This document shows, one piece after another, positions 12,230 to 59,300 of a stretch of 64,000 nucleotides of DNA. The notes beneath the pieces are model-generated. The model worked only from the letters and a program-made list of their open reading frames with translations, had not been told where the DNA came from and made no database searches. Made by a program: the position numbers and the translations under genes. Positions within the stretch are counted from its first letter, which is position 1; every line of letters begins with the position of its first letter. Origin of the DNA: Amyelois transitella (lineage: Eukaryota > Arthropoda > Insecta > Lepidoptera > Pyralidae); the NCBI RefSeq assembly GCF_032362555.1, contig NC_083532.1:4477001-4541000 (forward strand). The letters run 5' to 3'.

Positions 12230-15200
12230 ATGAGTGCGCCTAATGGGATGCTGTATGGCGGTGATGAAATCGGCGCGCTAGTATTCGATCCTGGCCACCA
12301 TACCTTAAGAGTTGGATATGCCCAAGAAGACACGCCAAAAGCCGATATTCCCGCGGTCGTTGGCGTGGGACCAGCCACACATATCCCAGAACCTGAGGAG
12401 AAGGTCCCAGATGGAAATGTCACACAGAGCGGTAAGTAATATAAAGTTTTTAAGATATTGTACCTAGCTAATACAAAATATTTTGGTCATGCAAAGATGC
12501 TTGTTTTTAATTTGGACTATAGTTCTTACACTTTCTCACAGTTTCTTTAGCATGGATTCAATTCCAGTGCTATACAAATTACTTCTTAAATATCCAAATT
12601 GGTACCTTATTTATGTTTAACCTAAAAAGCTAGGAATGAACTAGTTAATTCACTGGTAATTTTCTCCTATTGCAGTAATGCGATTCTTACTTACCTTGAA
12701 AGTTGAGGTCTGTTAGCTTGAATCATGATTGTTGCATTAGAAATAAGGTTTTGTATATCTGTGGCGCAGTGGTGGTGCGCTTGTCTGTGACACCGGAGGT
12801 CCCAGGTTCGAATCCTGGCCAGATCATGATAAGAACTTTCCCTAATTGTCCTGGGTCTTGCTTGCATTTCTATATAATTTTTTATTATAAAATATACTAC
12901 TGCCGAATAAGTATCTCGTAAGACAAGTGTTGAACTTACTTCGAGGCTAACTCATCAGCATAATCTGTTCCTCATATATTTATATTTATTCATTCAAATG
13001 TTTATTTCAAAATCGCCTCTTACTTTATCCCAAGAAAAGAAATAAAGAGTGCTCCTCTTTCTTAAGGATTAAAACTCATAAGAACGTAAAGGGATCCAAA
13101 AAAATAATTAAAAACATTCAACTCAACAGGCACCAAAGCAGGCGGAGAGCTCCGACACTACATAGACGTGACAGAGCTGCACGTGCCGAGACCGAACATG
13201 GAGATACAGACGTACATGAAAGACGGACAGGTGGACAACTGGGAGCTGTTCGAGAAGATGCTGGACTATTGTTACGCTAAAGTATGTGATGTGTTACATC
13301 GCCAGGCATTCTCCAGACTCGTTACATACATACATACATATATATAGTCCGTGTGGCCACTCCATCTCTATCCCGTGGATGTCGTAAAAGGCGACTAAGG
13401 GATAGGCTAACAAACTTGGGATTCTCTTTTAGGCGATGGGCTAGCAACCCGTCACTATTTGAATCTCAATCCTATCATTAAGCCAAACAGCTGAACGTGG
13501 CCTATCAGTCTTTTGAAGACTGTTGGCTCTGTCTACCCCATAAGGGATAAAGACGTGATCATATGTATGTATGTAAGTATGTGGTATACAACATCGCCAG
13601 GCATTCTCCAGACTCGTTACATACAGACATACATATATATAGTCCGTCTATATCCCTTACGGGGTAGACAGAGCAAATAGTCCCGAAAAGACTGAATGGC
13701 CACGTTCAGCTACTCGGCTTAATGATGGTATTGAGATCCAAATAGTGACAGGTTGCTAGCACATTGCCTAAAAAAAGGATCGCAATTTTATAGGCCTATC
13801 CCTTAGTCGCCTTTTACGACATCCATGGGAAAGAGATGGAGTGGTCCTATTCTTTTTTGTATTAGTGCCGGGAACCACACGGCACAGACTCGTTAATTAT
13901 ATGTATCTATGCAAAATTTCAAGAAGATTGAGTCAATAGATAGCTTTTGACAACAAATAAACTAACATAATTTTACATTTATAAATGTTGGGTTATAATA
14001 ATTACTTCTACTACATCTCTTTCCCATGGATGTCGTAAAACGCGACTAAGGGTTAGGCTTATATACTTGGGATTCGTCTTTTAGGCGATGCTAGCTGGGC
14101 TAGCAACCTGTCACTGTTTGAATCTCAATTCTATCGTTAACTTTCAGTCTTTTGATGACTGTTGGCTCTGCCTACCCCACTGAGGATATAGACGTGATTA
14201 TCTGTTGTTTATGTTACAATAATTACTCTTCTTTGCCAGTCCCAAATGAGAATGCTATAAAATACCGAGTTCATTACGCAGATTTTTTCCTATATTATAC
14301 TTTATTATATATTAATAATATACTATTATCAGGTCATACGCTCCCCATCAGAACACCACCCGGCCCTCTTCACAGAAGCGGTGTGGACCACACGGCCAGC
14401 GCGGGAGAAGCTGGCTGAGCTGCTGTTCGAGAAGTACCAGGCACCGGCGTTCTTCCTGGTGAAGAATGCTGTAGTGGCCGCGTTCGCTAGTGGAAAGTCC
14501 ACGGCCCTGGTGGTGGATGCTGGCGCGAGCCACACCTCAGCTGTACCGGTTATAGATGGGTGAGTTTGTAGATTAAGACATCACGTCTTTTTCCCTTACG
14601 GGGTAGACAGAGCAAATTGCCTTCCCTAGGACGTCGCGCTATTCAAGCCTATGTACAACTGCACGGTTTAATGATGGAATTGAGATTCAAAACACACGTT
14701 GCTAGCCCGCAGCCTTTTTCCTCAAGGAAAAACCTCGTACACATGTTTATTCGCATAGCTGAATTGAGATTCAAATAGTGACAGGCTTCTAGCCCATCGT
14801 CTGTAAAAAGAATCCCATAGCCTTAGTCGCCTTTTGCGACATCACTGCGAAAAAGATGGAATGGTCTTATTCTAAAGTGTCGAAAACCACACGGCACTAT
14901 ATAACACCCCTACATAAACATAAGTCTGGAACAATCAGCCGTAGCGTAATTATTTTCAGGAAAATCCCACCGCTGCCCCCTGCAAAAGTCAGTGTTGCGC
15001 GCCGTCAATTTTGGCGTTGGCGTTTTGTACTTGTAAAATTTGACAATTGCCATTATTTCTCTTCCTCATCCGAATATACATCAGCACGCAGTACACATTC
15101 TTTTATTTATATTCCAATATAAACGGTCCAGTAGAAGCGTGTGGTTCCCGGCACCAATACAAAAAAAGAATAGGACCACTCCATCTCTTTCCCATGGATG

Positions 15201-18200
15201 TCGTAAAAGGCGACTAAGGGATGGGCTTACAAACTTGGGATTCTTTTTTAGGCGATGGTCTAGCAACCTGTCACTATTTGAATCTCAATTCTATCATTAA
15301 GCCAAATAGCTGAACGTGGTCATTCAGTCTTTTCAAGACTGTTGGCTCTGTCTACCCCGCAAGGGACTTAGACGTGACCATATGTATGTATGCAGTAGAA
15401 GCGTAGACAGTTAGAGTAACTATATAAAATTTGATGTATGTTTGTTGTAGTTACGCTCTGGTCAGCGCGGCGGTGAGGTCTCCACTGGGCGGCGACCACC
15501 TCGCGGCACAAGCTAAAATCATGCTGAACAACATGCATATACAGATGTTGCCTATATATAGTATACAGGTAAGATTTTTTTTTTTGTGGAGAGGATGAAT
15601 GAAAACAGGTTGACTAAGCAGATGTACAAGGAGAGTGTGGAGGGAAAGGTCGGAGTGGGAAGACCTAGACGAACGTATCTTGATCAAATTTAGGACGTCC
15701 TGGTAAAGGGTCAGGTCAAGAGTACCCGAAACCGCTGAGCTTGCATGAAGAGAGTTATGAATGTGGATGAAGCGAAGGAAGTATGCAGAGATCGTGGCAA
15801 GTGGAAAAAGGTAGTCTCTGCCTACCCCTCCGGGAAAGAGGCGTGATTTTATGTATGTATGTAAGATTTTCATCCTTTTAGTTCGTTTTTTATTTTGTTT
15901 TCTCCCTCCTGGGTTTAGTCCCGGTGATGATACACATCATCACTCTGAAGAGGAGCCCAGGTTTCATCAAAAACCGTCCACTAGTTCCGGAGAAAGTACA
16001 AATAAAAGAACAGACAGATTTTTATTTTTTTGTCAATCTGGGCCGCGTTTGTGTGGGTAATATTTATATTCCGCTTAAATCAATTCACCACAATAATGAA
16101 TTCTCTTGTCCCACATTTCTAATCCAAGTTCGGCTATTTGTGAAGTTGACGTTATTGAAAACAATGCCGCAGTGCAGTCTGTTACCGCTTCTTCTGCACT
16201 GACGCTTTGGAAGCGTCAGTAAACTTTCGTTTTAAGTAATTAATTTGACGTCAACCAATGTTGTGAAAGCAAAAAATATGACAATTATTAAGTGTAGTTG
16301 GAATTTCCCATAATAATGAAAAAAAAAGAAATTCAATTTACATTTGAACTTAACCGTTCTTATATGAGCGACAAGCTGTGCCCGCTACTTCGTCCGCGTA
16401 GAAAGTTATTTTGGGCATCATTGAAGCCCTCAAGGACGAATAATTTTCGCCGTTTTTTTTTCACATTTTCCATTATTTCTTTGCACCTTGTAGTCGCAGC
16501 GTGATGTTATATATAGCCAAAAGCCTTTCTCGATAAATGGTCTATTCAACGCATAAAGAATTTTTCAATTCGAACCACTAGCTCCTGAGATTAGCGCGTT
16601 AAACAAACAAACTCTTCAGCTTTATACATAATATTAGTATAGATGGAACGAATTATAACTAACTAGCAATCCGCCCCGGCTTCGCACGGGTGCAAAATTA
16701 TAAATGTTATTATACATAAAAACCTTCCTCTTGAATCAATCTACCTGTTACAAAAAACCGCATCAAAATCCGTTGCGTAATTTTAAAGATTTAAGCATAC
16801 AGACAAACAGACTAAAATAGAGACTTAGACCTAGGCTGTTTTATACTATGTAGTGATAGCATTACAATTTGTCCACAGAGTAAAGAGGTTATAAGGGAAC
16901 GCGAGCGCGCCAGATACACCCTCAAGCCGCTTCCCGCCGGCTTGACACACTCCTGGCAGCAGTACATGCTGAAGAGACAGTACGAGGACTTCTGCCACTG
17001 TGTTGCGCATGTAAGATGACATTTTATTTTTTTTTATTTTTTTTCTATCTGTAGTCATATGAACATAGAGGCAGAAGAGAAAAATGGAACGAACCTGCGT
17101 AACAAAGTTAAGATTCACGAGTCTTAAGTTTGCATAGCGTACTCGAGCCTGGTGTCAAAGTTAAGTCTCACAAGTCTTAATTTGATAGAGTACACTCGAG
17201 ATTGGTGCCATAGTTAAGACTCACGAGTCCTTTAATTTAACATGTATACTCGATATATTGAATATTACCGACGACATCTGAAATACTGAATATTATATAT
17301 AACCTCACAATTCCGCTGATAAACTAACCGAAATAAATTCGTTAATTGATTGTCTGTTTTCGACGGACGAAGTTACGTACAACAGCTAGTCTAGTATACA
17401 TATAGTTCGTTTAGCAGATCGAAATTTCAAACTCTATTCTATCATTAAGTCAAACAGCTGAACGTGGCCTATCAGACTTTTCAACATTGTCGGCTCTGTC
17501 TACCCCGCAAGGTGTATACACTTGATTAATTGATTACATGTATGTATGCAAATTTCAAACAAATTAAAGTCCTTCTGTCTTATGTATGTATGTTTGTTCA
17601 CCCAGGTATCAGAAAGTCAATACGACGAGCGAACTGCCGCTTCGGTGCCGGGCACGCATTACGAGTTCCCCGGCGGTTACCACCAGGACTTCGGCCCGGA
17701 GAGGTTCAAGCTGACCGAGTGCTTGTTCGAACAGGCATTGGGTGCGCCGCATATTGGTAAGAAAATACATACACACACACACATATGGTCACGTCTATAT
17801 CCCTTGCGGGGTAGACAGAGTTAACAGTCTTGAAAAGACTGACAGGCTAAGTTCAGCTGTTTAGCTTAATGATAGAAATGAGGGAAAAGAAAAGGGTATG
17901 TTGAGATGGTTCGGTCATGTGGAGAGGATGAATGAAAACAGGTTGACTAAGCAGATATACAAGGAGAGTGTGGAGGGTCAAAAGTACCCGAAACCGCCGA
18001 GCTTGTACTCTCGACCTGACCCTTTGCCAGGACGTCCTTAATTTGATCAAGATACGTTCGTCTAGGTCTTCCCACTCCGACCTTTCCCTCCACACTCTCC
18101 TTGTATTTCTGCTATATCCTAGGATAATGAATAAAAATTTTGAATTTGAATTTGAATATGTATGTGTGTGCGCGTGCGCATGTGTCAGTGTGCGCGGCGG

Positions 18201-21200
18201 CGAGCGCGTGCGACGCGGACGCGCGGCCCGCGCTGTGGGGCGGCGTGCTGTGCGTGGGCGGCGGCGCCTGCCTGCCCGGCTGGAGCGACCGCCTCGCCAA
18301 GGAGCTGGCCAGCAGGGCGCCCTCCTCGCACAGGTATTGCTTGTTACATACATACAGACATACATAGTGCATACATATGGCCAGCAGGGCGCCTTCCTCG
18401 CACAGGTATTGCTTGTTACATACATACAGACATACATAGGTACATCATACATACATATGGCCAGCAGGGCGCCCTCCTCACACAGGTACTACTACTTCTT
18501 GTTACATACATACAGACATACATAGGTACATCATACATACATATGGCCAGCAGGGCGCCCTCCTCACACAGGTACTACTACTTCTTGTTACATACATACA
18601 GACATAGGTACATCATACATACATATGGCCAGCAGGGCGCCCTCCTCGCACAGGTACTACTACTTCTTGTTACATACAGACATACATAGGTACATCATAC
18701 ATACATATGGCCAGCAGGGCGCCCTCCTCGCACAGGTACTACTACTTCTTGTTACATACATACAGACATAGGTACATCATACATACATATGGCCAGCAGG
18801 GCGCCCTCCTCACACAGGTACTACTACTTCTTGTTACATACATACAGACATACATAGGTACATCATACATACATATGGCCAGCAGGGCGCCCTCCTCACA
18901 CAGGTACTACTACTTCTTGTTACATACATACAGACATACATAGGTACATCATACATACATATGGCCAGCAGGGCGCCCTCCTCACACAGGTACTACTACT
19001 TCTTGTTACATACATACAGACATACATAGGTACATCATACATACATATGGCCAGCAGGGCGCCCTCCTCACACAGGTACTACTACTTCTTGTTACATACA
19101 TACAGACATAGGTACATCATACATACATATGGCCAGCAGGGCGCCCTCCTCACACAGGTACTACTACTTCTTGTTACATACATACAGACATACATAGGTA
19201 CATCATACATACATATGGCCAGCAGGGCGCCCTCCTCACACAGGTACTACTACTTCTTGTTACATACATACAGACATACATAGGTACATCATACATACAT
19301 ATGGCCAGCAGGGCGCCCTCCTCGCACAGGTACTACTACTTCTTGTTACATACATACAGACATAGGTACATCATACATACATATGGCCAGCAGGGCGCCC
19401 TCCTCACACAGGTACTACTACTTCTTGTTACATACATACAGACATACATAGGTACATCATACATACATATGGCCAGCAGGGCGCCCTCCTCACACAGGTA
19501 CTACTACTTCTTGTTACATACATACAGACATACATAGGTACATCATACATACATATGGCCAGCAGGGCGCCCTCCTCACACAGGTACTACTACTTCTTGT
19601 TACATACATACAGACATACATAGGTACATCATACATACATATGGCCAGCAGGGCGCCCTCCTCACACAGGTACTACTACTTCTTGTTACATACATACAGA
19701 CATACATAGGTACATCATACATACATATGGCCAGCAGGGCGCCCTCCTCACACAGGTACTACTACTTCTTGTTACATACATACAGACATAGGTACATCAT
19801 ACATACATATGGCCAGCAGGGCGCCCTCCTCACACAGGTACTACTACTTCTTGTTACATACATACAGACATACATAGGTACATCATACATACATATGGCC
19901 AGCAGGGCGCCCTCCTCACACAGGTACTACTACTTCTTGTTACATACATACAGACATACATAGGTACATCATACATACATATGGCCAGCAGGGCGCCCTC
20001 CTCACACAGGTACTACTACTTCTTGTTACATACATACAGACATACATAGGTACATCATACATACATATGGCCAGCAGGGCGCCCTCCTCACACAGGTACT
20101 ACTACTTCTTGTTACATACATACAGACATACATAGGTACATCATACATACATATGGCCAGCAGGGCGCCCTCCTCACACAGGTACTACTACTTCTTGTTA
20201 CATACATACAGACATACATAGGTACATCATACATACATATGGCCAGCAGGGCGCCCTCCTCGCACAGGTACTACTACTTCTTGTTACATACATACAGACA
20301 TAGGTACATCATACATACATATGGCCAGCAGGGCGCCCTCCTCACACAGGTACTACTACTTCTTGTTACATACATACAGACATACATAGGTACATCATAC
20401 ATACATATGGCCAGCAGGGCGCCCTCCTCACACAGGTACTACTACTTCTTGTTACATACAGACATACATAGGTACATCATACATACATATGGCCAGCAGG
20501 GCGCCCTCCTCGCACAGGTACTACTACTTCTTGTTACATACATACAGACATAGGTACATCATACATACATATGGCCAGCAGGGCGCCCTCCTCACACAGG
20601 TACTACTACTTCTTGTTACATACATACAGACATAGGTACATCATACATACATATGGCCAGCAGGGCGCCCTCCTCACACAGGTACTACTACTTCTTGTTA
20701 CATACATACAGACATAGGTACATCATACATACATATGGCCAGCAGGGCGCCCTCCTCACACAGGTACTACTACTTCTTGTTACATACATACAGACATACA
20801 TAGGTACATCATACATACATATGGCCAGCAGGGCGCCCTCCTCGCACAGGTACTACTACTTCTTGTTACATACATACAGACATAGGTACATCATACATAC
20901 ATATGGCCAGCAGGGCGCCCTCCTCACACAGGTACTACTACTTCTTGTTACATACAGACATACATAGGTACATCATACATACATATGGCCAGCAGGGCGC
21001 CCTCCTCACACAGGTACTACTACTTCTTGTTACATACATACAGACATAGGTACATCATACATACATATGGCCAGCAGGGCGCCCTCCTCGCACAGGTACT
21101 ACTACTTCTTGTTACATACATACAGACATAGGTACATCATACATACATATGGCCAGCAGGGCGCCCTCCTCACACAGGTACTACTACTTCTTGTTACATA

Positions 21201-24200
21201 CATACAGACATAGGTACATCATACATACATATGGCCAGCAGGGCGCCCTCCTCACACAGGTACTACTACTTCTTGTTACATACATACAGACATACATAGG
21301 TACATCATACATACATATGGCCAGCAGGGCGCCCTCCTCACACAGGTACTACTACTTCTTGTTACATACATACAGACATAGGTACATCATACATACATAT
21401 GGCCAGCAGGGCGCCCTCCTCACACAGGTACTACTACTTCTTGTTACATACATACAGACATAGGTACATCATACATACATATGGCCAGCAGGGCGCCCTC
21501 CTCACACAGGTACTACTACTTCTTGTTACATACATACAGACATACATAGGTACATCATACATACATATGGCCAGCAGGGCGCCCTCCTCGCACAGGTACT
21601 ACTACTTCTTGTTACATACATACAGACATAGGTACATCATACATACATATGGCCAGCAGGGCGCCCTCCTCACACAGGTACTACTACTTCTTGTTACATA
21701 CATACAGACATAGGTACATCATACATACATATGGCCAGCAGGGCGCCCTCCTCACACAGGTACTACTACTTCTTGTTACATACATACAGACATAGGTACA
21801 TCATACATACATATGGCCAGCAGGGCGCCCTCCTCACACAGGTACTACTACTTCTTGTTACATACATACAGACATACATAGGTACATCATACATACATAT
21901 GGCCAGCAGGGCGCCCTCCTCACACAGGTACTACTACTTCTTGTTACATACAGACATACATAGGTACATCATACATACATATGGCCAGCAGGGCGCCCTC
22001 CTCACACAGGTACTACTACTTCTTGTTACATACATACAGACATACATAGGTACATCATACATACATATGGCCAGCAGGGCGCCCTCCTCACACAGGTACT
22101 ACTACTTCTTGTTACATACATACAGACATAGGTACATCATACATACATATGGCCAGCAGGGCGCCCTCCTCACACAGGTACTACTACTTCTTGTTACATA
22201 CATACAGACATAGGTACATCATACATACATATGGCCAGCAGGGCGCCCTCCTCACACAGGTACTACTACTTCTTGTTACATACATACAGACATACATAGG
22301 TACATCATACATACATATGGCCAGCAGGGCGCCCTCCTCACACAGGTACTACTACTTCTTGTTACATACATACAGACATACATAGGTACATCATACATAC
22401 ATATGGCCAGCAGGGCGCCCTCCTCACACAGGTACTACTACTTCTTGTTACATACATACAGACATACATAGGTACATCATACATACATATGGCCAGCAGG
22501 GCGCCCTCCTCGCACAGGTACTACTACTTCTTGTTACATACATACAGACATAGGTACATCATACATACATATGGCCAGCAGGGCGCCCTCCTCACACAGG
22601 TACTACTACTTCTTGTTACATACATACAGACATACATAGGTACATCATACATACATATGGCCAGCAGGGCGCCCTCCTCACACAGGTACTACTACTTCTT
22701 GTTACATACATACAGACATACATAGGTACATCATACATACATATGGCCAGCAGGGCGCCCTCCTCACACAGGTACTACTACTTCTTGTTACATACAGACA
22801 TACATAGGTACATCATACATACATATGGCCAGCAGGGCGCCCTCCTCACACAGGTACTACTACTTCTTGTTACATACATACAGACATACATAGGTACATC
22901 ATACATACATATGGCCAGCAGGGCGCCCTCCTCACACAGGTACTACTACTTCTTGTTACATACATACAGACATACATAGGTACATCATACATACATATGG
23001 CCAGCAGGGCGCCCTCCTCACACAGGTACTACTACTTCTTGTTACATACATACAGACATACATAGGTACATCATACATACATATGGCCAGCAGGGCGCCC
23101 TCCTCACACAGGTACTACTACTTCTTGTTACATACAGACATACATAGGTACATCATACATACATATGGCCAGCAGGGCGCCCTCCTCACACAGGTACTAC
23201 TACTTCTTGTTACATACATACAGACATAGGTACATCATACATACATATGGCCAGCAGGGCGCCCTCCTCACACAGGTACTACTACTTCTTGTTACATACA
23301 TACAGACATAGGTACATCATACATACATATGGCCAGCAGGGCGCCCTCCTCACACAGGTACTACTACTTCTTGTTACATACATACAGACATACATAGGTA
23401 CATCATACATACATATGGCCAGCAGGGCGCCCTCCTCACACAGGTACTACTACTTCTTGTTACATACATACAGACATACATAGGTACATCATACATACAT
23501 ATGGCCAGCAGGGCGCCCTCCTCACACAGGTACTACTACTTCTTGTTACATACATACAGACATACATAGGTACATCATACATACATATGGCCAGCAGGGC
23601 GCCCTCCTCACACAGGTACTACTACTTCTTGTTACATACATACAGACATACATAGGTACATCATACATACATATGGCCAGCAGGGCGCCCTCCTCACACA
23701 GGTACTACTACTTCTTGTTACATACAGACATACATAGGTACATCATACATACATATGGCCAGCAGGGCGCCCTCCTCACACAGGTACTACTACTTCTTGT
23801 TACATACATACAGACATACATAGGTACATCATACATACATATGGCCAGCAGGGCGCCCTCCTCACACAGGTACTACTACTTCTTGTTACATACATACAGA
23901 CATAGGTACATCATACATACATATGGCCAGCAGGGCGCCCTCCTCACACAGGTACTACTACTTCTTGTTACATACAGACATACATAGGTACATCATACAT
24001 ACATATGGCCAGCAGGGCGCCCTCCTCGCACAGGTACTACTACTTCTTGTTACATACATACAGACATACATAGGTACATCATACATACATATGGCCAGCA
24101 GGGCGCCCTCCTCACACAGGTACTACTACTTCTTGTTACATACAGACATACATAGGTACATCATACATACATATGGCCAGCAGGGCGCCCTCCTCACACA

Positions 24201-26906
24201 GGTACTACTACTTCTTGTTACATACATACAGACATAGGTACATCATACATACATATGGCCAGCAGGGCGCCCTCCTCGCACAGGTACTACTACTTCTTGT
24301 TACATACATACAGACATACATAGGTACATCATACATACATATGGCCAGCAGGGCGCCCTCCTCACACAGGTACTACTACTTCTTGTTACATACATACAGA
24401 CATAGGTACATCATACATACATATGGCCAGCAGGGCGCCCTCCTCGCACAGGTACTACTACTTCTTGTTACATACATACAGACATACATAGGTACATCAT
24501 ACATACATATGGCCAGCAGGGCGCCCTCCTCACACAGGTACTACTACTTCTTGTTACATACATACAGACATACATAGGTACATCATACATACATATGGCC
24601 AGCAGGGCGCCCTCCTCACACAGGTACTACTACTTCTTGTTACATACATACAGACATACATAGGTACATCATACATACATATGGCCAGCAGGGCGCCCTC
24701 CTCGCACAGGTACTACTACTTCTTGTTACATACAGACATACATAGGTACATCATACATACATATGGCCAGCAGGGCGCCCTCCTCGCACAGGTACTACTA
24801 CTTCTTGTTACATACATACAGACATAGGTACATCATACATACATATGGCCAGCAGGGCGCCCTCCTCACACAGGTACTACTACTTCTTGTTACATACATA
24901 CAGACATACATAGGTACATCATACATACATATGGCCAGCAGGGCGCCCTCCTCGCACAGGTACTACTACTTCTTGTTACATACATACAGACATACATAGG
25001 TACATCATACATACATATGGCCAGCAGGGCGCCCTCCTCGCACAGGTACTACTACTTCTTGTTACATACAGACATACATAGGTACATCATACATACATAT
25101 GGCCAGCAGGGCGCCCTCCTCACACAGGTACTACTACTTCTTGTTACATACAGACATACATAGGTACATCATACATACATATGGCCAGCAGGGCGCCCTC
25201 CTCACACAGGTACTACTACTTCTTGTTACATACAGACATACATAGGTACATCATACATACATATGGCCAGCAGGGCGCCCTCCTCGCACAGGTACTACTA
25301 CTTCTTGTTACATACAGACATACATAGGTACATCATACATACATATGGCCAGCAGGGCGCCCTCCTCGCACAGGTACTACTACTTCTTGTTACATACATA
25401 CAGACATACATAGGTACATCATACATACATATGGCCAGCAGGGCGCCTTCCTCGCACAGGTACTACTTGTTACATACATACAGACATACATAGGTACATC
25501 ATACATACATATGGCCAGCAGGGCGCCCTCCTCGCACAGGTATTGCTTGTTACATACATACAGACATACATCGTGCATGCATACATCGTGCATACATGCA
25601 TCGTGCATACATACATCGTGCTTACATACATCGTGCATACATACATAGTGCATGCATACATCGTGCATGCATACATCGTGCATACATGCATCGTGCATAC
25701 ATACATCGTGCTTACATACATCGTGCATATATACATAGTGCATACATACATCGTGCATGCATACATCGTGCATGCATTAATATATACGGAACAAATTACA
25801 CAGATTGAGTTAGCCTCGAAGTAAGTTCGAGACTTGTGTTACGAGATACTAACTCAACGATACTATATTTTATAATAAAATACTTATAATACCCAGGTCA
25901 ATCAGAGAAAGTTCGTTTCTCATCATGCCCTGGCCGGGATTCGAACCCGGGACCTACTGTGTCACAGACAAGCGCACAACCGCTGCGCCACAGAGGCCGT
26001 CTTAAACGTTAAAAGTGGTATAAAAAAAAAGGGACTGTTTTTTTATATTGAGATTAACAGATTTTATTTTTACGGCGGACGAAGTCGCCGGCAACAGTCA
26101 GTGGTGAATATCAGGCAAGGCCGATTACTTTAATTATAATGTTAAACTGAATATAATTAAAAAAATTACAGGCTAAAGAGTCACACAGCGCCGTCTCATA
26201 ATGAAAGAAGATTCGCCGCTTGGATCGGTAAGTTATACATTTATTATTCTTCTCCAACCGTGTAACAATTTCTGAAGCTCGAGGTGCGTCCATTTTTCAT
26301 TTATTCATATAATCACGTCTATATCTCTTGCGGGATAGACAGAGCCAGCAGTCTTGATAGGTCACGTTCAGCTGTTAGGCTTAATGATAGATATAAATGA
26401 TAGCTTTTGTCCGCTATATCCTGGATTGGGTGAGTCAGGCTTTTTACACGAAGCGACTTTGGTAATGACCTCCGAAACCATTGCACGGGAACCTTATCTG
26501 TATTAATAATAATAAAAGTTTATTTATTTTCTCCACAATAAACAAAGTATTAACCTAGTTACAGTAAATAATATATATTGTTGTAAATAATATTTATTAT
26601 TGTTGCGGTATTGAATTATGATTGAAGCTGCACTACATGTCTGATCCCTTAGTCGCCTTTTACAATATCAATGGGAAAGCTAAGTGGTCCAATTCCGGGA
26701 GCCACACGGCACATCTGATTTTTTATTATTTATTTTGTGATAGTTGTCTGTTGAGGTCAATAGATGGCGCTTGCAATTTTAACGCTTGTTTTTTATTTTC
26801 AGGCGGTTCAATCCTCGCGTCCATAGGATCGTTCCAGCAAATGTGGATTTCATCCCAAGAGTATGACGAAGGCGGCAAGGGGCAACTAGAAAGGAAATGC
26901 CCTTAA
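12230..26906 (+). CDS. Bap55: BAP55 / ACTL6A, actin-related BAF-complex subunit (nine exons, 428 aa)
   Basis: Nuclear actin-related protein; in the family it pairs with actin on the HSA helix of Brahma/BRG1-type remodellers and related complexes. Exons: 12230-12431, 13130-13281, 14333-14559, 15451-15568, 16879-17010, 17606-17756, 18189-18333, 26172-26227 and 26803-26906 (1287 nt). All junctions are GT-AG and phases agree; the length equals that of human ACTL6A to within one residue. Hallmarks are [12 protein letters not shown] near the start, the [18 protein letters not shown] and [16 protein letters not shown] actin-fold segments (exon 3), [12 protein letters not shown] (exon 6), [20 protein letters not shown] (exons 8-9) and the conserved LERKCP end. 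Exon 7 is extremely GC-rich and has diverged most from the usual family sequence. Intron 7 is 7838 bp and mostly a minisatellite built from the end of exon 7. Reading past the exon 7 donor meets a stop after 12 codons, so that intron must be removed from the first donor. Confidence 0.95.
12755..12990 (+). mobile_element. SINE-B copy in BAP55 intron 1
   Basis: Degenerate tRNA-like head (CTGTGGCGCAGTGGTGGTG, B-box GGTTCGAATCC) with the body and tail in the same order as at 4648. The body is more diverged than in other copies. Confidence 0.75.
13282..13624 (+). repeat. Bap55: Duplicated donor-adjacent intron segment after BAP55 exon 2
   Basis: The first about 48 intron bases (13282-13329: GTATGTGATG, then CATCGCCAGGCATTCTCCAG and ACTCGTTACATAC) recur at 13578-13624 with a few changes, including the GTATGTG donor hexamer. 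A SINE-A lies between the copies. A third scrap (AGACTCGTTA) follows the next SINE-A at 13887. Confidence 0.75.
13347..13577 (+). mobile_element. SINE-A copy
   Basis: Plus orientation from CCGTGTGGCCACTCCATCTC to the (TATG)n tail. The ACCGGCACC part of the 5' end is deleted. It sits between the duplicated donor-adjacent segments. Confidence 0.7.
13645..13886 (-). mobile_element. SINE-A copy
   Basis: Reverse orientation, complete to GGTGCCGGGAACCACACGGC-type end (13866-13886). Together with the previous copy it forms an inverted pair. Confidence 0.75.
14010..14205 (+). mobile_element. SINE-A, 5'-truncated
   Basis: Starts at CTACATCTCTTTCCCATGGA and ends at TATAGACGTGATTATCTG. It has a short internal duplication around GGCGATGCTAGCTGGGCTAG. 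Confidence 0.65.
14575..14900 (-). mobile_element. Rearranged SINE-A copies after BAP55 exon 3
   Basis: A reverse-oriented 3' part begins only about 18 bases after the exon 3 donor (CACGTCTTTTTCCCTTACGG) and is joined to a second partial copy from about 14758 ending at ACCACACGGCAC. The internal CTCAAGGAAAAACCTCGTAC stretch resembles family D. Confidence 0.6.
15141..15391 (+). mobile_element. Full-length SINE-A with target-site duplication
   Basis: Runs from TGTGGTTCCCGGCACC to the TATGTATG tail. It is flanked by CAGTAGAAGCG at 15130-15140 and 15392-15402. The 11-bp duplication and simple-repeat tail indicate target-primed reverse transcription. This copy best defines the element ends (about 250 bp). 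Confidence 0.8.
15586..15868 (+). mobile_element. RTE-type LINE 3' end
   Basis: The C-terminal part of an RTE-like endonuclease-reverse transcriptase frame: [15 protein letters not shown] and [13 protein letters not shown] coding segments, then CCGGGAAAGAGGCGTGA and (TATG)n. An in-frame stop replaces a Lys codon (TTTAGGACG). It begins about 18 bases after the BAP55 exon 4 donor. Confidence 0.75.
16150..16325 (+). repeat. Family C repeat
   Basis: GCAGTGCAGTCTGTTACCGC, GACGTCAACCAATGTTGTG and an AATAATGAAAAAAAAAG tail, in BAP55 intron 4. Confidence 0.55.
16365..16858 (-). mobile_element. Two Helitron-like repeats
   Basis: 16365-16640 (GCCCGCTACTTCGTCCGCG through TTATACATAATATTAGTAT) and 16655-16858 (AACTAGCAATCCGCCCCGGC through TATACTATGTAGTGATA) are reverse-oriented and adjacent. 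The second ends about 20 bases before BAP55 exon 5. Confidence 0.55.
17420..17550 (+). mobile_element. SINE-A 3' half
   Basis: ATTAAGTCAAACAGCTGAAC through CACTTGATTAATTG and ATGTATGTATG, in BAP55 intron 5. Exon 6 starts at 17606 and is preceded by more TATG tract. Confidence 0.6.
17784..17880 (-). mobile_element. SINE-A fragment after BAP55 exon 6
   Basis: Its CATA-rich tail (ATACATACACACACACACAT) starts eight bases after the exon 6 donor at 17757, followed by CACGTCTATATCCCTTGCGG. It is truncated at about 17880 by an RTE fragment. Confidence 0.65.
17881..18112. mobile_element. Inverted pair of RTE fragments
   Basis: 17890-17985 reads in plus orientation (TGGAGAGGATGAATGAAAAC, CAAGGAGAGTGTGGAGG). 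From about 17997 the sequence turns over and reads the reverse strand (GACCCTTTGCCAGGACGTCC to CACACTCTCCTTGTATTTCT). The arms share the AAGGAGAGTGTGGAGGG region and could fold as a hairpin about 75 bases before exon 7. Confidence 0.65.
18307..25556 (+). repeat. Bap55: Exon-junction minisatellite: 86 tandem copies of the BAP55 exon 7 3' end and donor
   Basis: The last bases of exon 7 (GCCAGCAGGGCGCCCTCCTC, then GCACAG) plus the donor GT recur in tandem. I located 86 downstream units, each starting ATGGCCAGCAGG, from 18377 to 25511, besides the parental copy at about 18307-18333. Unit lengths are 86 or 82 bp, except for the first and the last-but-one units (80 bp). The 82-bp units come in two kinds, each lacking one ACAT or TACA step of the CATA-rich part. 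Internal units have CAG|GTACTA and usually CTCACACAG; the first unit and the last unit keep the parental GTATTGCTTG. Units are otherwise almost identical. Because 86 and 82 are 2 and 1 modulo 3, adjacent units can give 78-160-codon open frames by chance; these are not genes. Confidence 0.95.
25557..25775 (+). repeat. Short-period tandem repeat at array end
   Basis: About 14 imperfect units of 12-16 bases around CATCGTGCATACATA, grading from the CATA-rich part of the last array unit. Open frames on both strands here are low complexity. Confidence 0.85.
25783..26004 (-). mobile_element. SINE-B copy, reverse
   Basis: Tail first (ACAAATTACACAGATTGAGT) and tRNA-like head last (GGATTCGAACCCGGGACC, CCGCTGCGCCACAGAGGCCG). 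It lies between the short-period repeat and BAP55 exon 8. Confidence 0.8.
26311..26713 (-). mobile_element. Split SINE-A pieces in BAP55 intron 8
   Basis: A 3' part at 26311-26395 (CACGTCTATATCTCTTGCGG) and a 5' part at 26640-26713 (CCCTTAGTCGCCTTTTACAA to GAGCCACACGGCAC), separated by a family D fragment (26404-26503) and AT-rich DNA. Confidence 0.5.
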
Positions 26907-43209: not shown

Positions 43210-44170
43210 ACACAAAGGTTAGATAGATAAAACTCTTTATTGCACCATAAGAGTAAAACATACAAAACAACTCAAAGCAGATATAGATGGTACAAAGGCG
43301 GACTTATCGCTAAAGCAATCTCTTCCAGTCAACCTTTGGGTGGAAGGAAATCAAACAGGAGATTGGCGTTGGCGCAGAGCAAGATAAATAAATGTTTGAA
43401 CATAATAAAATACATACATAATATATATCTATATATAATACATATAAATACATACAAATACGCATAAATACAGATAAAAACATAATAATAACATATACTT
43501 AGGATAGAGTAGAAAGATAGTGAGACCTAACGAGATTTTTGAAACTATTAATAGTCTGGGCTTTCCTGATATCGACAGGAAGAGCATTCCATAGACGGAC
43601 AGCTTGTACAGTAAAAGAGTGGGAGTAAAAATTGGTGTTGGATGTCGGTAGTCTTAGTCGTAGGGTAACCGTGCTACGCAGACTGCGGGTGGCGCCTTGG
43701 GCATCGCTATAAAAATTGAAGCGCTCCTTTAAATAAGATGGAGAAAACGGATTAAATAAGACCGAATAGAGCATTGTCACAATATGCAAATTGCGACGGA
43801 GTCGGATAGGAAGCCACTTCAGCTGCGAACGGAAAGAAGAAACGTGATCATATTTGCGAAGCCCAAATATGAAACGTATAGAAAGATTTTGAAGACGCTC
43901 GAGTTTGTTTAACTGTTCCTCAGTGACGTCGAGATAAGCAGTATCAGCGTAATCAAGGAGAGGGAGAAGAAGAGATTGTGTCAGCGCAATTTTAGTATCA
44001 ATAGGTAGGAAATTACGTAACCTTCTAAGCGAGCTGAATGCTAAGAACATTTTCCTGCTCACGTCATTAATATGATGCGACCATGACAAAGTTTTGTCGA
44101 ATATTAAACCCAAATTTTTTACCTTGTCACTAAAAGGAATTACCACATTATCAAAATTAAGAGGAGGCAC
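43210..44170 (-). pseudogene. 5'-truncated LINE: C-terminal reverse-transcriptase ORF plus 3' region
   Basis: 43499-44170 is an open frame of 223 codons with the post-catalytic part of a Jockey/CR1-group reverse transcriptase: a KNLGLIFDKTLSW segment, SLLLPLLDYADTAYLD, a LERLQNLSIRFIFGL segment and VRLWNALPVDIR near the end. The catalytic palm (F/Y-ADD) and endonuclease are absent, so it cannot move by itself. 43210-43498 on the same strand looks like its 3' UTR, matching the piece at 5664-5757. The frame is intact, suggesting a fairly recent insertion. The exact clade is not certain. Confidence 0.8.
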
Positions 44171-53300: not shown

Positions 53301-56300
53301 ATAATATTTTATATTTTTACATGCATTATTTATGTCCCTAACTCTTGATCTCTTGTCCCTAAAAGTATTTTTTTTATCGATTAACATGAAAAAATAGCCT
53401 AAATCTTGCATCAGGGGCACTCCAGTGAGGATGTCGTTGCGCCGCCTCTCCCCCCTGAGCCTGCTCTCGTCGCTCGGCCGCCGCAAGCGCCGCCACTCGG
53501 GCCACACGCTGCAGCACATCGAGAGCGCGCTCACTGTCTGCTCGTACAGAGAGTCGTGTCTTTTACTAACAGCGCAACCTTATTGAGTCGCTTGAAGTGA
53601 TGTCTTACAAAAGTCGTAGCTGCAGCAGGAATTGGAACTCCCTGGCCAGCATATTACAAGTCTGATATTGTCCATCAAAGTATTCATCCATTATTTTATT
53701 TATGTCCCTAACTCTTGTCCCTAAAAGTATTTTTTTATCAATTAACATGAAGAAAAATGCCTAAATCATGAATCAGGGGCACTCCAGTGAGGATGTCGTT
53801 GCGTCGCCTCTCCCCCCTGAGCCTGCTCTCGTCGCTCGGCCGCCGCAAGCGCCGCCACTCGGGCCACACGCTGCAGCACATCGAGAGCGCGCTCACTGTC
53901 TGCTCATATAGAGAGTCGTGTCTTTTACTAACAGCGCAACCTTATTGAGTCGCTTGAAGTGATGTCTTACAAAAGTCGTGGCTGCAGCAGAATTGAATAC
54001 CTGGCCAGCTTATTACAAGTCTGATCTTGTCCCTCGAAGTAAACATGCATTATTTATGTCCCGAACTCTGATCCTGTCCCTAAAAGTATTTCTTTTATCG
54101 ATTAACATGAAAAACATAGCCTAAATCTTGCATCAGGGGCACTCCAGTGAGGATGTCGTTGCGTCGCCTCTCCCCCCTGAGCCTGCTCTCGTCGCTCGGC
54201 CGCCGCAAGCGCCGCCACTCGGGCCACACGCTGCAGCACATCGAGAGCGCGCTCACTGTCTGCTCGTACAGAGAGTCGTGTCGGTGTCTCGACTGCCAGG
54301 TGAGTAGTGAAACTGTTTATTACTAGCTGTTCCGGCCGGCGATTTCATCCGCGTGGTGTTCTTTTTTTTCTGCTGTCAAAAGTAGTTTATGTTCTCGTCA
54401 AGGTCAACACTATCTCTTTATCAAATTTTTGTGTCGTTTCCGGCATCAAGAGAAAAAAGAATAGGACCAATTCATCTCTTTCCTATGGGTGTCATAAAGG
54501 TGGCTAAGGTTTAGGCTTATAAACTTGGGCTTCTTCCTTTAGGCGACGGGCTAGTGACCTGACACTATTTGAATCTCATTCCAATCATTAAGCCAAACAG
54601 CTGAATGTGCCTATCAGTCTTTTCTACCCCCCAAGGGATATAAACGTGAGTATATACATGTATGTATGTACCAACCTGCTTTCGAAATTATGCACACACA
54701 AAATTAAGTTCTTAAAGGGTTTTCATCAATGGAATTTTCGATAGGCGACTATGATGTGCGTGCGATGCCGCCGGTAAAACTAGTGGAGAATAAAATAAAA
54801 AGAGTCAAAATGATTCACGGTATATTTTTCTTATCACAAGAATAACGTCAACAGCAAATACAATGCGAGCGAATGCTATAGTATACATATTACGCTAATT
54901 AAACAATTGAAAAGTCACGAGTCACTTTGTTACCAGCCAGAATAATTTTAGTATGTAGGATGAAAAAAACTTATGATCGTAATTATTTATTTTCCACAAT
55001 ACATTTGATAACGGGTAACAATTTTCAAGTGGAAATTTAAAAAAGATGTCGTCTCTGTCTACCACTCTGGAAAAGAGGCGTGATTTATACATACATTTAG
55101 TCTCGTCTATATCCCTTGCGGGGTAGACAGAGCCAACTGCCTTGTAATTACTGAAGGGCTACGTTCAGTTGTATAGTTTTTTTGTGTGTACAATTTTCTA
55201 ATTTAATTTATATGTATAAGTAACTTTAAATTGTTAGTTTCTCTACAAAGTGAAATTTACATAATAACACATTAAAATAATGCAACAAAATGTTCATTGA
55301 TGTCGTTAACTAAACTAACTCAGAAACATCAGCCGGAGACTCTAACTACATTTAAATTAACTTATTAGCACACAATGAATAATGCAACGAAATGATTATC
55401 AATGTTTTTAACTGAACTTGCTCAGAAAAAATATTTCATTATATTTTTTTAAACCATAGTACTAAACGTGGCCTTTCAGTCTTTTAGCTCAAGACTAAGC
55501 TCTGTCTACGCCGTAATGGATAAAGACGTAATACATGCTTGTATGTATGTAATGTAGTACCTATGTAATCTATTTATGCTTTTTTTACTCAAAAATTTAA
55601 TTAGTTAATCATTATTTCATTACCATTAATTAATTTATTATTAAGTATAATTATCCTTAATCCGTCTCTGTTGTTTGAAATGAGAAAAAATATAACGATA
55701 GGAAATGTGGGAATCTCAAAGCATGGAGCATATTTTACAGCATGTAAACTATACATATATAAATATCTAAACTATATAGGTTAACAGCCTAGATCCCAAG
55801 TTTTGTTTGTCTATCCCTAAGTCATCTTTTACGACATCCACGGAAAAGAGAAGATATCGTAATCTAAAATGCCGGTAATAATTAATATTTGACTGGCATT
55901 ACTTTTAGATTAAGATTAGGTAGTTTTGATAAAAATATTGACAAAAACCTAGCAGTCTATACAATCTTCACTCGTGTAGAAATCTGAAGCCCTTGTAGCT
56001 TAAAATGTTTGACATCCATTCAATAGTTTTTAAGTGAAAGAGAAACAAACGTACAAATATATATATACAAATTTCGTAATCTATGTTAGAAAGATAATAA
56101 TATAGGTAGAGATTAAAGCTTTTTATTATGAACTAGCTGTGCCCGCGACTTCGTCCGAGTGGATTAGTTATTTTGGGCGTCATTGATCAAATTAAGGACG
56201 TCCTGGTGAAGGGTCAGGTCAAAAGTGCCCGAAACCGCCGAGCTTGCATGAAGAGAGTTATGAATGTGGATGAAGCAAAGGAAGTATGCAGGGATCGTGG

Positions 56301-59300
56301 CAAGTGGAAAGAGGTAGTCTCTGCCTACCCCTCCGGGAAAGAGGCGTGAGTTTATGTATGTATGTTGAAGCCCTCAAGGATGAATAATTTTCCTCGTTTC
56401 TTTTTCACATTTTCAATATTTCTTTGCTGTTATGTTGTGTGTTATATAGCCTAAAGCCGTCCTCGATAAATGGTCTATTCGACGCAAAAAGAATTTTTCA
56501 ATTCGAACCAGTAGTTCATTAGATTCAAGCAAACAAACTCTTCAGCATATTAACATTAGTATAGATAAATTTTTATTGCTATTAACAGCACCTTTGCTAT
56601 ATTATTTACATTACAAAAATATTATGAAGAACGGACTTAATTATTGTTCCTTGTTTTTTGTCAGCAGTAATGTTCCATCTAGTTATTAAAAAAATATATC
56701 TGTCAAATGTTATAAAATACCAACCAATAATTTAAAAGTCAACTTTTATTTATATTTATTGAGTCCATAGCTTATAAACTAATAAAAAAATCAACATGCA
56801 TCATTGATCATTTAGTAACAAAATGGTATACAATGTCAAAATATTAAACTTAATACGAAAGTTATTCTAATATGTACCAAAATTTAGAAGCCCTTGGATT
56901 TAATCTTGAAGAATAATGAGTTACATTTTAACATTTTTTTCCTTAAACTTAATAAGCTTTGAATGTACTTAGACATGATTTATTCACTTAGTAATCCAGC
57001 TCAAATATAAAATACCTATTAAATAAAAACAATTTAAAAATCAAGGCATCTTATTTATGGTTCATACAATTTTTAATTACAATGTCAAACTATCACATAT
57101 ATGGCGTCACAAATAAATATTAAAATCATTCAACAAACTTGTCTATGTCATATTCTAAATTTGAATCAGTCACATCTTCAACTTTTTTCTTTCTCTCCTC
57201 TAGCCTAATGCATTTTAAGCATTTCTGCCCTTTTCGTAACCAACAACCCCTATGGCAAACTGAATTACATTTTTCGCACATTATAGCTCCGTTATCAAAC
57301 GGGTATATAACCTCGTTATTGTTGCAAATTTCACAAATGTACCCTTTTCCAGAGCAAAGAGCGCAGTTTGTTATGTGTGAGCGACACTGTTCTGTTAATT
57401 CGGTCAGTTCAGACTCTAATGATCCATCGTTTATCGCTTGTAAGTGAGCCATGCTGTATTGGTTGTTCACATCACCTAGTTGTACGAATAACGGAGACAA
57501 TAACAATGTGCCTTCAGCACACGCGCAGAGGTAACGCCTCATCCATTCTAAATCCCTCCTCATTTTATGCACCCATTCCAATTCCGCAATAAAGTTGAAC
57601 AATTTAGAATTTATACTCTCGACATCTATGTATGGTCGTGACCACGATAATGTCAGCATTTGATATGCGATTCGTGAAACATATCGCTTTTCCCAATCCC
57701 AATTGTGTACCACTCTAGCGGGGATTGCGAATAAATCATTCCAATGGCACGTTGTGCAGAAATACAGGCCCGTGTAATCACATAAACGTGGTTCGTTCCA
57801 TGTATCCTTAAAGGTTAAAGTTGTCTGACACTCCGCACACTTGTAATCTTGAGCTGCCAAGCCCCTTTCCGGACATATATTCATTTCAAAATGACCACTT
57901 TCTGTCATAACCACATGGGCACACACTCTGCATATGTGATCAACACATTTATAATGACACAAATAGCCACAATCGTTGCAAATGTACGAAGCTTGCACTA
58001 TACTCCATATTACACCACTACAGTGGTCACAATACTGTTTCCTGGTACTAGAACTGGCTTGGCGCTCGAAATGATGCCCTTTTATGGACACTAGCTGCCT
58101 TGGTTGTCCATCATTGTCCTTCAAATCTTCTAAACGAATACGCAACTCAACTAAATACCTCACGAACCATTTACGTTCGTCGGAACATTGAGGACTGTTT
58201 AAAACAAGTTCTTTACACTGAATTATAGCTTTCTCTATCTCTTCTCGCGTCGCTGTGCTGTGAATCTTCAGTTTCTTGTTGGCTATGGTCTTTGGGATGT
58301 TCGAGTCGTAACTTTCGTCAGCAGAAACGCACCCGGAAGTAGATGATGAGGATGGACTCCCGGAGGCGACTTCCACGCTTCTAGGGCTGCAGCATATCAG
58401 GCTGTTGCGATATTTCGGAGAATCATTAGCTAACGCAGCAGCCATCGTCGCAATTACGTCGGAATTGAACGCGGGGTTTTCACGCAAAATTTGAGGCACT
58501 CGTCACAAAGTGTTATTTCATTTTCGTCAGCAATTTATGTAAATAAATTGTTTGGAATGGTGTAGCAGGTGAGAAACGCAGTTAGTCACTGATTACGCCT
58601 CATTTATTGTCATCATTTCCTTTGTTTTGATGAAAGAGAAGTAGGTTCTTCAATGTTAAATTTGTTCCGTCATTTTTGACACAGATTTTTATTTGACAGC
58701 ACAATTGACTTTGACATTTCCGCATTACGTTCCTTTCCCACTTGTAATATTTAATTGATTGTTTTAGTATTTATATAACTTTCAAAGTAACATCTAGCTA
58801 TATAGGTACTTTATTATTAGATAGGCAGACAAAATAATGAACGAATTATACTCTTTATATAATTCTGTCAATTCATTTAAATCAATCAATAGTTAAACAA
58901 AATCATCAAAATCTTTGGTGGATTGGAACGTAGCACTTTCCGTAGGCGTAGTAGGCGTACCAACTTAACAATAACATGCTTTTCGTTTCTTCTTGTTTTC
59001 TTCCAATTTTAACTCATAATAGACAAACGAAACTAAATTTAACGAAAACTAACTAATCTTCAATCAAAAACATAAAAATAAATTTGTATTAACATTACAT
59101 ATTTTTTTATTAAAACAATATTATGCGATGTCGGCGATAAAATTATGCAAAACAAACAACAGCTGATTTTTTGCATGCAACACCGCCGTGTGTGAGTAAA
59201 GATAGCAATATTGTGCAAGTGAGAGGTCATAATTTTTAGATTGTTTATAACAAAATAGTATTCCAATATAGGAATTAAGATGACATCATAGTCTTGTGTT

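Follow-up and report, generated by a model that had tools for sequence, protein, structure and literature searches.

A minisatellite of exon 7 ends and 5′ splice sites within intron 7 of BAP55/ACTL6A

How can an intron come to hold 86 further copies of the exon end and 5′ splice site (donor) at which it begins, and how would a conserved gene continue to be spliced across them? The question is raised by intron 7 of BAP55/ACTL6A, which was examined in a window of 64,000 nucleotides (C28:4477001-4541000, the whole stretch of DNA that was analyzed) from a 327-Mb assembly of 33 contigs. The explanation that we prefer, with a probability of about 0.6, is that a young minisatellite was founded by chance across the exon-intron boundary and that it is tolerated as a passenger and is not a device kept by selection.

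The gene and its exons

BAP55/ACTL6A comprises nine exons on the + strand between positions 12230 and 26906, and joining them yields an intact open frame of 428 amino acids from which the exon boundaries were taken. Exon 1 (12230-12431, with the ATG at 12230) is followed by exons 2 (13130-13281), 3 (14333-14559), 4 (15451-15568), 5 (16879-17010) and 6 (17606-17756); translated exon 6 has matches in the PDB to chains of human Actin-like protein 6A. Exon 7 (18189-18333, 145 nt) ends in TGGCCAGCAGGGCGCCCTCCTCGCACAG|GTATTG, and its true donor, CAG|GTATTG, is at 18334. By the gene model, intron 7 occupies positions 18334-26171 and is 7838 bp long, versus 432-1310 bp for the remaining seven introns. 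Exon 8 (26172-26227) provides the acceptor common to all 87 donors, and exon 9 (26803-26906) carries the stop codon. The GC content of exon 7 is 80.7%, and that of the other eight exons is between 50% and 61%.

The gene had been named BAP55 in an earlier inspection of the letters alone (the “sequence-only reading”), and this identification was borne out. A database search in which 8000 candidates were scored gave 89% identity to actin-like protein 6A of Leptidea sinapis, and the 428-aa protein contains a single Pfam Actin domain. The first eleven proteins among the best 120 of 1202 matches were 86-89% identical to it, and among the matches listed this actin-fold protein is nearest to ACTL6A. 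We identify the gene as a lepidopteran BAP55/ACTL6A. When the genome was searched with the protein, all matches above 52% identity (of 23 in total) were BAP55 itself and the others, at 25-52%, lay elsewhere, which leaves no candidate for a further copy by which constraint on BAP55 might be relaxed. This same-genome search scores the best candidates only; as far as it sees, BAP55/ACTL6A is single copy. Across the join of exons 7 and 8 (RAPSSHR|LK) the protein is continuous, with no inserted residues in nine aligned homologues. Bap55, a chromatin gene, is essential. Because the gene appears to be single copy and its protein is intact and conserved, a functional mRNA must cross intron 7, provided that the assembly is right.

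Elsewhere in the window, a 458-aa open frame on the − strand (57126-58502), presumably a DEF8-like neighbour gene, carries a Rubicon Homology domain plus a C1 domain just under the cut-off. A 223-aa open frame, also on the − strand (43499-44170), resembles by eye the C-terminal part of a non-LTR reverse transcriptase and has no Pfam match at E 0.001. Tandem arrays occur at 53319-54282 (362-bp unit, 2.7 copies, 90% matches by TRF) and at 59794-60064 (90-bp unit, three copies, 97% matches). The latter is built on ‘GGCTCTGTCTACCCCGCAAGGG’-like sequence, near copies of which are seen by eye to occur singly at other places in the window.

Anatomy and growth of the array

Minisatellites are head-to-tail arrays of units of roughly 10-100 bp whose copy number is polymorphic between individuals. 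Intron 7 holds one array by TRF (18345-25586), in which 86.3 head-to-tail copies recur with an 86-bp period and 96% matches. An exact search for the exon tail placed 87 anchors, from 18306 to 25512, all head-to-tail and all followed by CACAG|GT. The first of these tails is the real end of exon 7, and 86 further copies lie behind it. Both numbers had been given by the sequence-only reading, which described 86 tandem exon-derived units behind the genuine exon and 87 near-identical donors, and both were reproduced. Its account of each unit as an exon tail with a GT donor is also correct, but the exon part is 28 nt long rather than 26 nt.

Unit 1 (18306-18377, + strand; delimited from the exact anchors and the sequence) is the putative founder and consists of the 28-nt exon 7 tail and 44 nt of intron, 72 bp in all. 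Units 2 to 87 (18378-25586, + strand; TRF and exact anchors) are the 86 additional copies of exon tail and donor. Units 2 and 86 are 80 bp long and units 3 to 85 are either 82 bp or 86 bp, while unit 87 merges into a flanking repeat. Adjoining the array on the + strand is a 15-bp repeat, ACATACATCGTGCAT (25564-25777, 14.3 copies by TRF), that resembles the intronic half of the unit by eye. Judged from sequence, such flanking simple repeats would be a ready substrate for expansion.

The first bases of the donor are GTACTACTA in 83 units, GTATTGCTT in three (units 1, 2 and 87) and GTACTACTT in one (unit 86). There are ten unit types overall and six among the 83 interior units, where they are formed by a single A/G site (A in 65 units, G in 18) together with two 4-bp deletions that occur as alternatives. 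Not one private substitution is present in the 6974 bp of the interior units, and a C/T change is restricted to units 2 and 86. The two variable sites within the exon tail are both synonymous in the frame of exon 7 (TCG/TCA and CCC/CCT); selection on the exon tail within the array was considered, but two sites decide nothing. A second AGGT (TAGGTACATC), with weaker U1 pairing (−5.5), occurs 85 times in the array (18345-25586), and AGGT totals there are 172 on the + strand and none on the − strand.

Throughout the 327-Mb assembly, the exact exon-tail pattern was found 87 times on the + strand and never on the − strand, always within the array. The 86-bp unit gave 88 matches, of which 87 are in the array and one is a 37-bp partial match, on contig C31, covering the TACA-rich part of the unit. 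CAGGTA occurs 87 times on the + strand of the 7.3-kb array and not at all on its − strand, versus 14 (+) and 9 (−) occurrences in the other 56.7 kb of the window, so chance is excluded. A sample of 20 stretches of 10 kb, one from each of contigs C1 to C20 and only 200 kb in total, contained a single array with a period of at least 10 and a span of at least 300 bp. Since that array has six copies, the one in intron 7 looks like an outlier against this sample. The viral contigs contained no match to the array, and when a 141-aa frame of the array was compared to a protein database none of 2090 candidates reached E ≤ 10.

Because unit 1 is made of 28 + 44 bases, and because unduplicated TACA-rich intron lies past the start of unit 87 (followed by the 15-bp repeat), the founding event would most simply have been a tandem duplication of 72 bp across the exon-intron edge. 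The segment would have comprised 28 nt of the end of exon 7, the donor, and 44 nt of the TACA-rich start of the intron. Its copies would then have changed to the 82- or 86-bp unit with donor GTACTA, a form that now fills the 83 interior copies and leaves other forms at both edges. The donor forms are GTATTGCTTG in units 2 and 87, GTACTACTTG in unit 86, and GTACTACTACTTCTTG in the interior; our own reading of these sequences is that the interior units are derived and the edge units old. A short, founder-like unit 1 and the apparently early donor forms kept by units 2, 86 and 87 support the view that the array is a passenger.

Toward either end of the array, the A/G site is more often a G. The order of the interior types is close to a shuffled one (longest repeated block of 6 units, versus a shuffled mean of 5.7; runs tests, p of 0.37 and 0.38), and no sign of a higher-order repeat or of block duplication was found in it. 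In a small simulation, which is weak evidence, patterns like the observed one arose when tandem blocks could reach 10 units or when conversion operated. With a maximum of 3 units per block the arrays were clustered, with 0 of 6 usable runs as unclustered as the real one, and the usable runs for single-unit steps were too few to judge. The butterfly mutation rate is ∼3e-9 per site and generation. At this rate, the lack of private substitutions in 6974 bases would put the last copying of a typical interior unit within the past ∼1.5e5 generations. We read the array as either young or strongly homogenised.

The putative 72-bp founder is a duplicated segment that bears an AGGT (CACAGGT), as in intron gain by AGGT tandem duplication. 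With respect to the gain of a new intron, the array sits within intron 7 by the gene model and nine homologues are without insert at the join; intron 7 would presumably predate the array.

Donor choice and rival explanations

That donor 1 is made first and is the only donor to join the full 145-nt exon is the most likely reason why the array is tolerated. Correct splicing would be kept by exon definition, in which donor 1 alone adjoins a complete exon with an acceptor 145 nt upstream, and the later donors, which AT-rich spacers precede, would be at least 217 nt from the exon 7 acceptor. Later donors are probably used in a minority of transcripts, which would end at codon 387 and be subject to nonsense-mediated decay.

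Exon extensions to the 87 donors split 30:29:28 over the three frames. All 86 later donors nevertheless meet an identical premature stop at codon 387, because every extension passes through the same first 34 intron bases in unit 1. The 86 later donors thus share one stop and do not have 86 independent ones. This in-frame TAG (18365-18367, + strand; sequence and translation) is reached if donor 1 is not used and is the 12th codon of the retained intron when the split junction codon is included, in agreement with the earlier statement that retention runs into a stop after 12 codons.

Simple measures (U1 pairing, accessibility and intron length) do not favour donor 1 and count against the view that the array is a passenger. 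Donor 1 is predicted to pair with the 5′ end of U1 at −7.2 kcal/mol, 84 of the copies at −7.1 kcal/mol and the other two at −7.2 kcal/mol; only 3 of 361 other GTs in the introns of the gene pair as well. Donor 1 is the only one of the eight donors of the gene without G at +5, and five of the seven others pair better with U1 than it does. By these predictions donor 1 is not privileged by its sequence. Occlusion of the array donors by RNA structure was considered and rejected, since they are predicted to be more open than donor 1 (mean accessibility of 0.52, versus 0.31 and 0.33 for donor 1 with two window sizes; 0 and 1 of 86 less accessible, respectively). With donor 1 the exon is 145 nt and the intron 7838 nt long, with donor 2 the exon would be 217 nt, and with donor 87 the intron would be 632 nt, which is inside the usual 432-1310 range of the gene. 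Note also that selection would perhaps act against an array that leaks strongly.

Other exons that the units could supply were considered. In-frame microexons, starting from AGs 18 and 21 nt before the donor and adding 6 or 7 residues (RAPSSH repeats in an open frame), have a next to negligible probability, as the two AGs are preceded by 7 and 6 pyrimidines of 14 (background mean, 6.7), no strict branch motif is found, and no insert is present in the 9 aligned homologues. A 56-nt pseudo-exon, from TACAG to the donor, is possible in 55 of 82 units examined; in the one unit that was read it contains a stop.

A first alternative to a tolerated passenger is that each unit is a dual-specific, or recursive, site. 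The CCCTCCTCRCACAG|GTACTA of every unit would serve as an acceptor and then as a regenerated donor, so that the 7.8-kb intron is removed stepwise whatever the number of units and the array cancels itself, leaving the coding sequence unchanged. The exon tail does end in CCCTCCTCRCACAG, and AG|GT is present at all 87 sites, at a fixed place in every unit (CACAG|GT in 87 of 87), as in described dual-specific arrays. By sequence, if donor 1 were joined to CACAG in any of the units, exactly exon 7 plus GT would be restored. The sequence-only reading had held that accurate use of the first donor is required; the stop beyond donor 1 stands, but “required” is too strong, since a path from donor 1 to a later CACAG and onward would give the same mRNA. 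Two reports describe comparable sites, namely fly recursive sites that juxtapose 3′ and 5′ motifs around AG/GT (PMC6110457) and a tandem array of dual-specific sites that is in use in UBC (PMC10809524).

Ten of 14 positions are pyrimidines in the tracts of the array sites, ahead of CAG|GTA, a number reached by 11% of 344 other intron AGs and by 1 of 8 real acceptors. However, AGs lie 18 and 21 nt upstream and would be met first by a scanning spliceosome; the nearest AG is 19-66 nt away in the real acceptors (n = 8). In addition, a strict yTnAy branch point 15-60 nt upstream is absent in 83 of 83 interior units, although this test is blunt, in that 5 of 8 real acceptors have the strict motif without an intervening AG, two have it only across AGs, and one has none. 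Among other intron AGs, 35 of 307 have the strict motif without an intervening AG. The length of the interior units, 82 or 86 bp, is not a multiple of three, as unit length is in UBC and in 45 of 77 introns in the same survey (PMC10809524). Judged on its acceptor features, removal through dual-specific sites is not favoured, and we consider it unlikely. If true, it would account for the 86-fold multiplication of an exon edge in a single-copy conserved gene, repeat expansion would leave no trace in the mRNA as the spliceosome moves stepwise across the array, and minisatellite growth would be a route to long introns.

It is likewise improbable that the array acts as a dosage rheostat, in which later donors compete with donor 1, transcripts stopping at codon 387 decay, and repeat number tunes the output of BAP55. 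The identical premature stop behind 86 of 86 later donors and the equal U1 pairing would suit this, and human intronic VNTRs (in ABCA7 and TERT) are reported to affect splicing. A single shared stop codon is nonetheless what almost any retained intron would be expected to give.

Near-identical units without private substitutions also resemble consensus errors in repeats, and copy number could be inflated or otherwise wrong in the assembly. We think this rather improbable. The contigs are of chromosome scale (33 for 327 Mb, the twenty examined measuring 9.5-13.9 Mb), and the array has six unit types in an aperiodic order, with graded edges. Because the window contains no N and the order holds no repeated block beyond that of a shuffled one, nothing seen points to an assembler loop. 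A length of 7.2 kb is below that of ordinary long reads, which bears on the array only if the assembly is long-read based.

U1 is known to shield transcripts against premature polyadenylation (telescripting). Very improbably, the array might be a landing site in which 87 U1-complementary sites hold U1 snRNP and shield intron 7 from premature polyadenylation, or keep unspliced transcripts nuclear. The restriction of CAGGTA to the sense strand and the presence of one AATAAA at 25874 and one ATTAAA at 26156, just downstream in intron 7, would fit, but the former follows from the same anatomy and is not evidence of function.

Comparison with known systems

A literature search over titles and the starts of abstracts, with subscription papers mostly outside its range, returned no minisatellite built from an exon end and donor. 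We know of no comparably large array in which an exon end is repeated together with its own donor; the nearest described cases are UBC arrays and AGGT duplications. Studies of how a donor is selected when its competitors are equal have used designed duplications of a few sites. A single-copy conserved gene in which one transcript carries 87 donors of equal predicted U1 pairing, in fixed order and with few sequence differences, would constitute a natural competition set. If the assembly is right, RNA of the animal holds the answer, which may be use of donor 1 only (exon definition or first-come), use of the last donor (intron definition), a ladder (stochastic choice), or stepwise removal. The array also suggests that intron growth can multiply splice signals while leaving the coding sequence untouched.

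Long tandem arrays within an intron of a working gene are described for the intronic VNTRs of ABCA7 and TERT and for the 10-19 kb intron repeat of an earthworm metallothionein gene (PMC12783039). In these respects they are like the array here; in the text available for them, none is described as consisting of the end of an exon together with the 5′ splice site of that exon.

Recursive sites of Drosophila likewise juxtapose an acceptor and a donor around AG/GT inside a long intron. They have strong motifs and are described from introns of great length (PMC6110457, PMC8605326), and no single unit is repeated to make them. The sites here, by contrast, lie in an intron of 7.8 kb, repeat in tandem and lack a strict branch motif.

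In the Rogers model of intron gain by AGGT duplication (ATP2A1, 24-bp units in fission yeast, and potato RdRp), the duplicated segment supplies GT and AG and the peptide can stay the same, as could be the case here. In those cases (PMC4974935), a new intron arises from one to a few duplicates, whereas here an existing exon-intron edge was apparently duplicated and the intron enlarged by 86 copies.

The human UBC polyubiquitin gene resembles the array in that every unit of its tandem repeat has an AG|GT at the same position, so that one repeat provides many near-identical sites. Its 9 coding units are separated by dual-specific sites and its mRNAs differ in how many monomers they contain; introns of this kind are reported to be in 8.4-fold excess in human tandem repeats (PMC10809524). 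UBC differs in that its units are coding and 228 nt long, so that inclusion alters the protein. The array in BAP55 has 86 units within an existing intron, of 82 or 86 bp and hence not multiples of three, with 28 exon bases each, and use of these units in splicing is putative. Among the cases compared, human UBC is the nearest described one, and intron gain by AGGT duplication (PMC4974935) would be the nearest evolutionary account.
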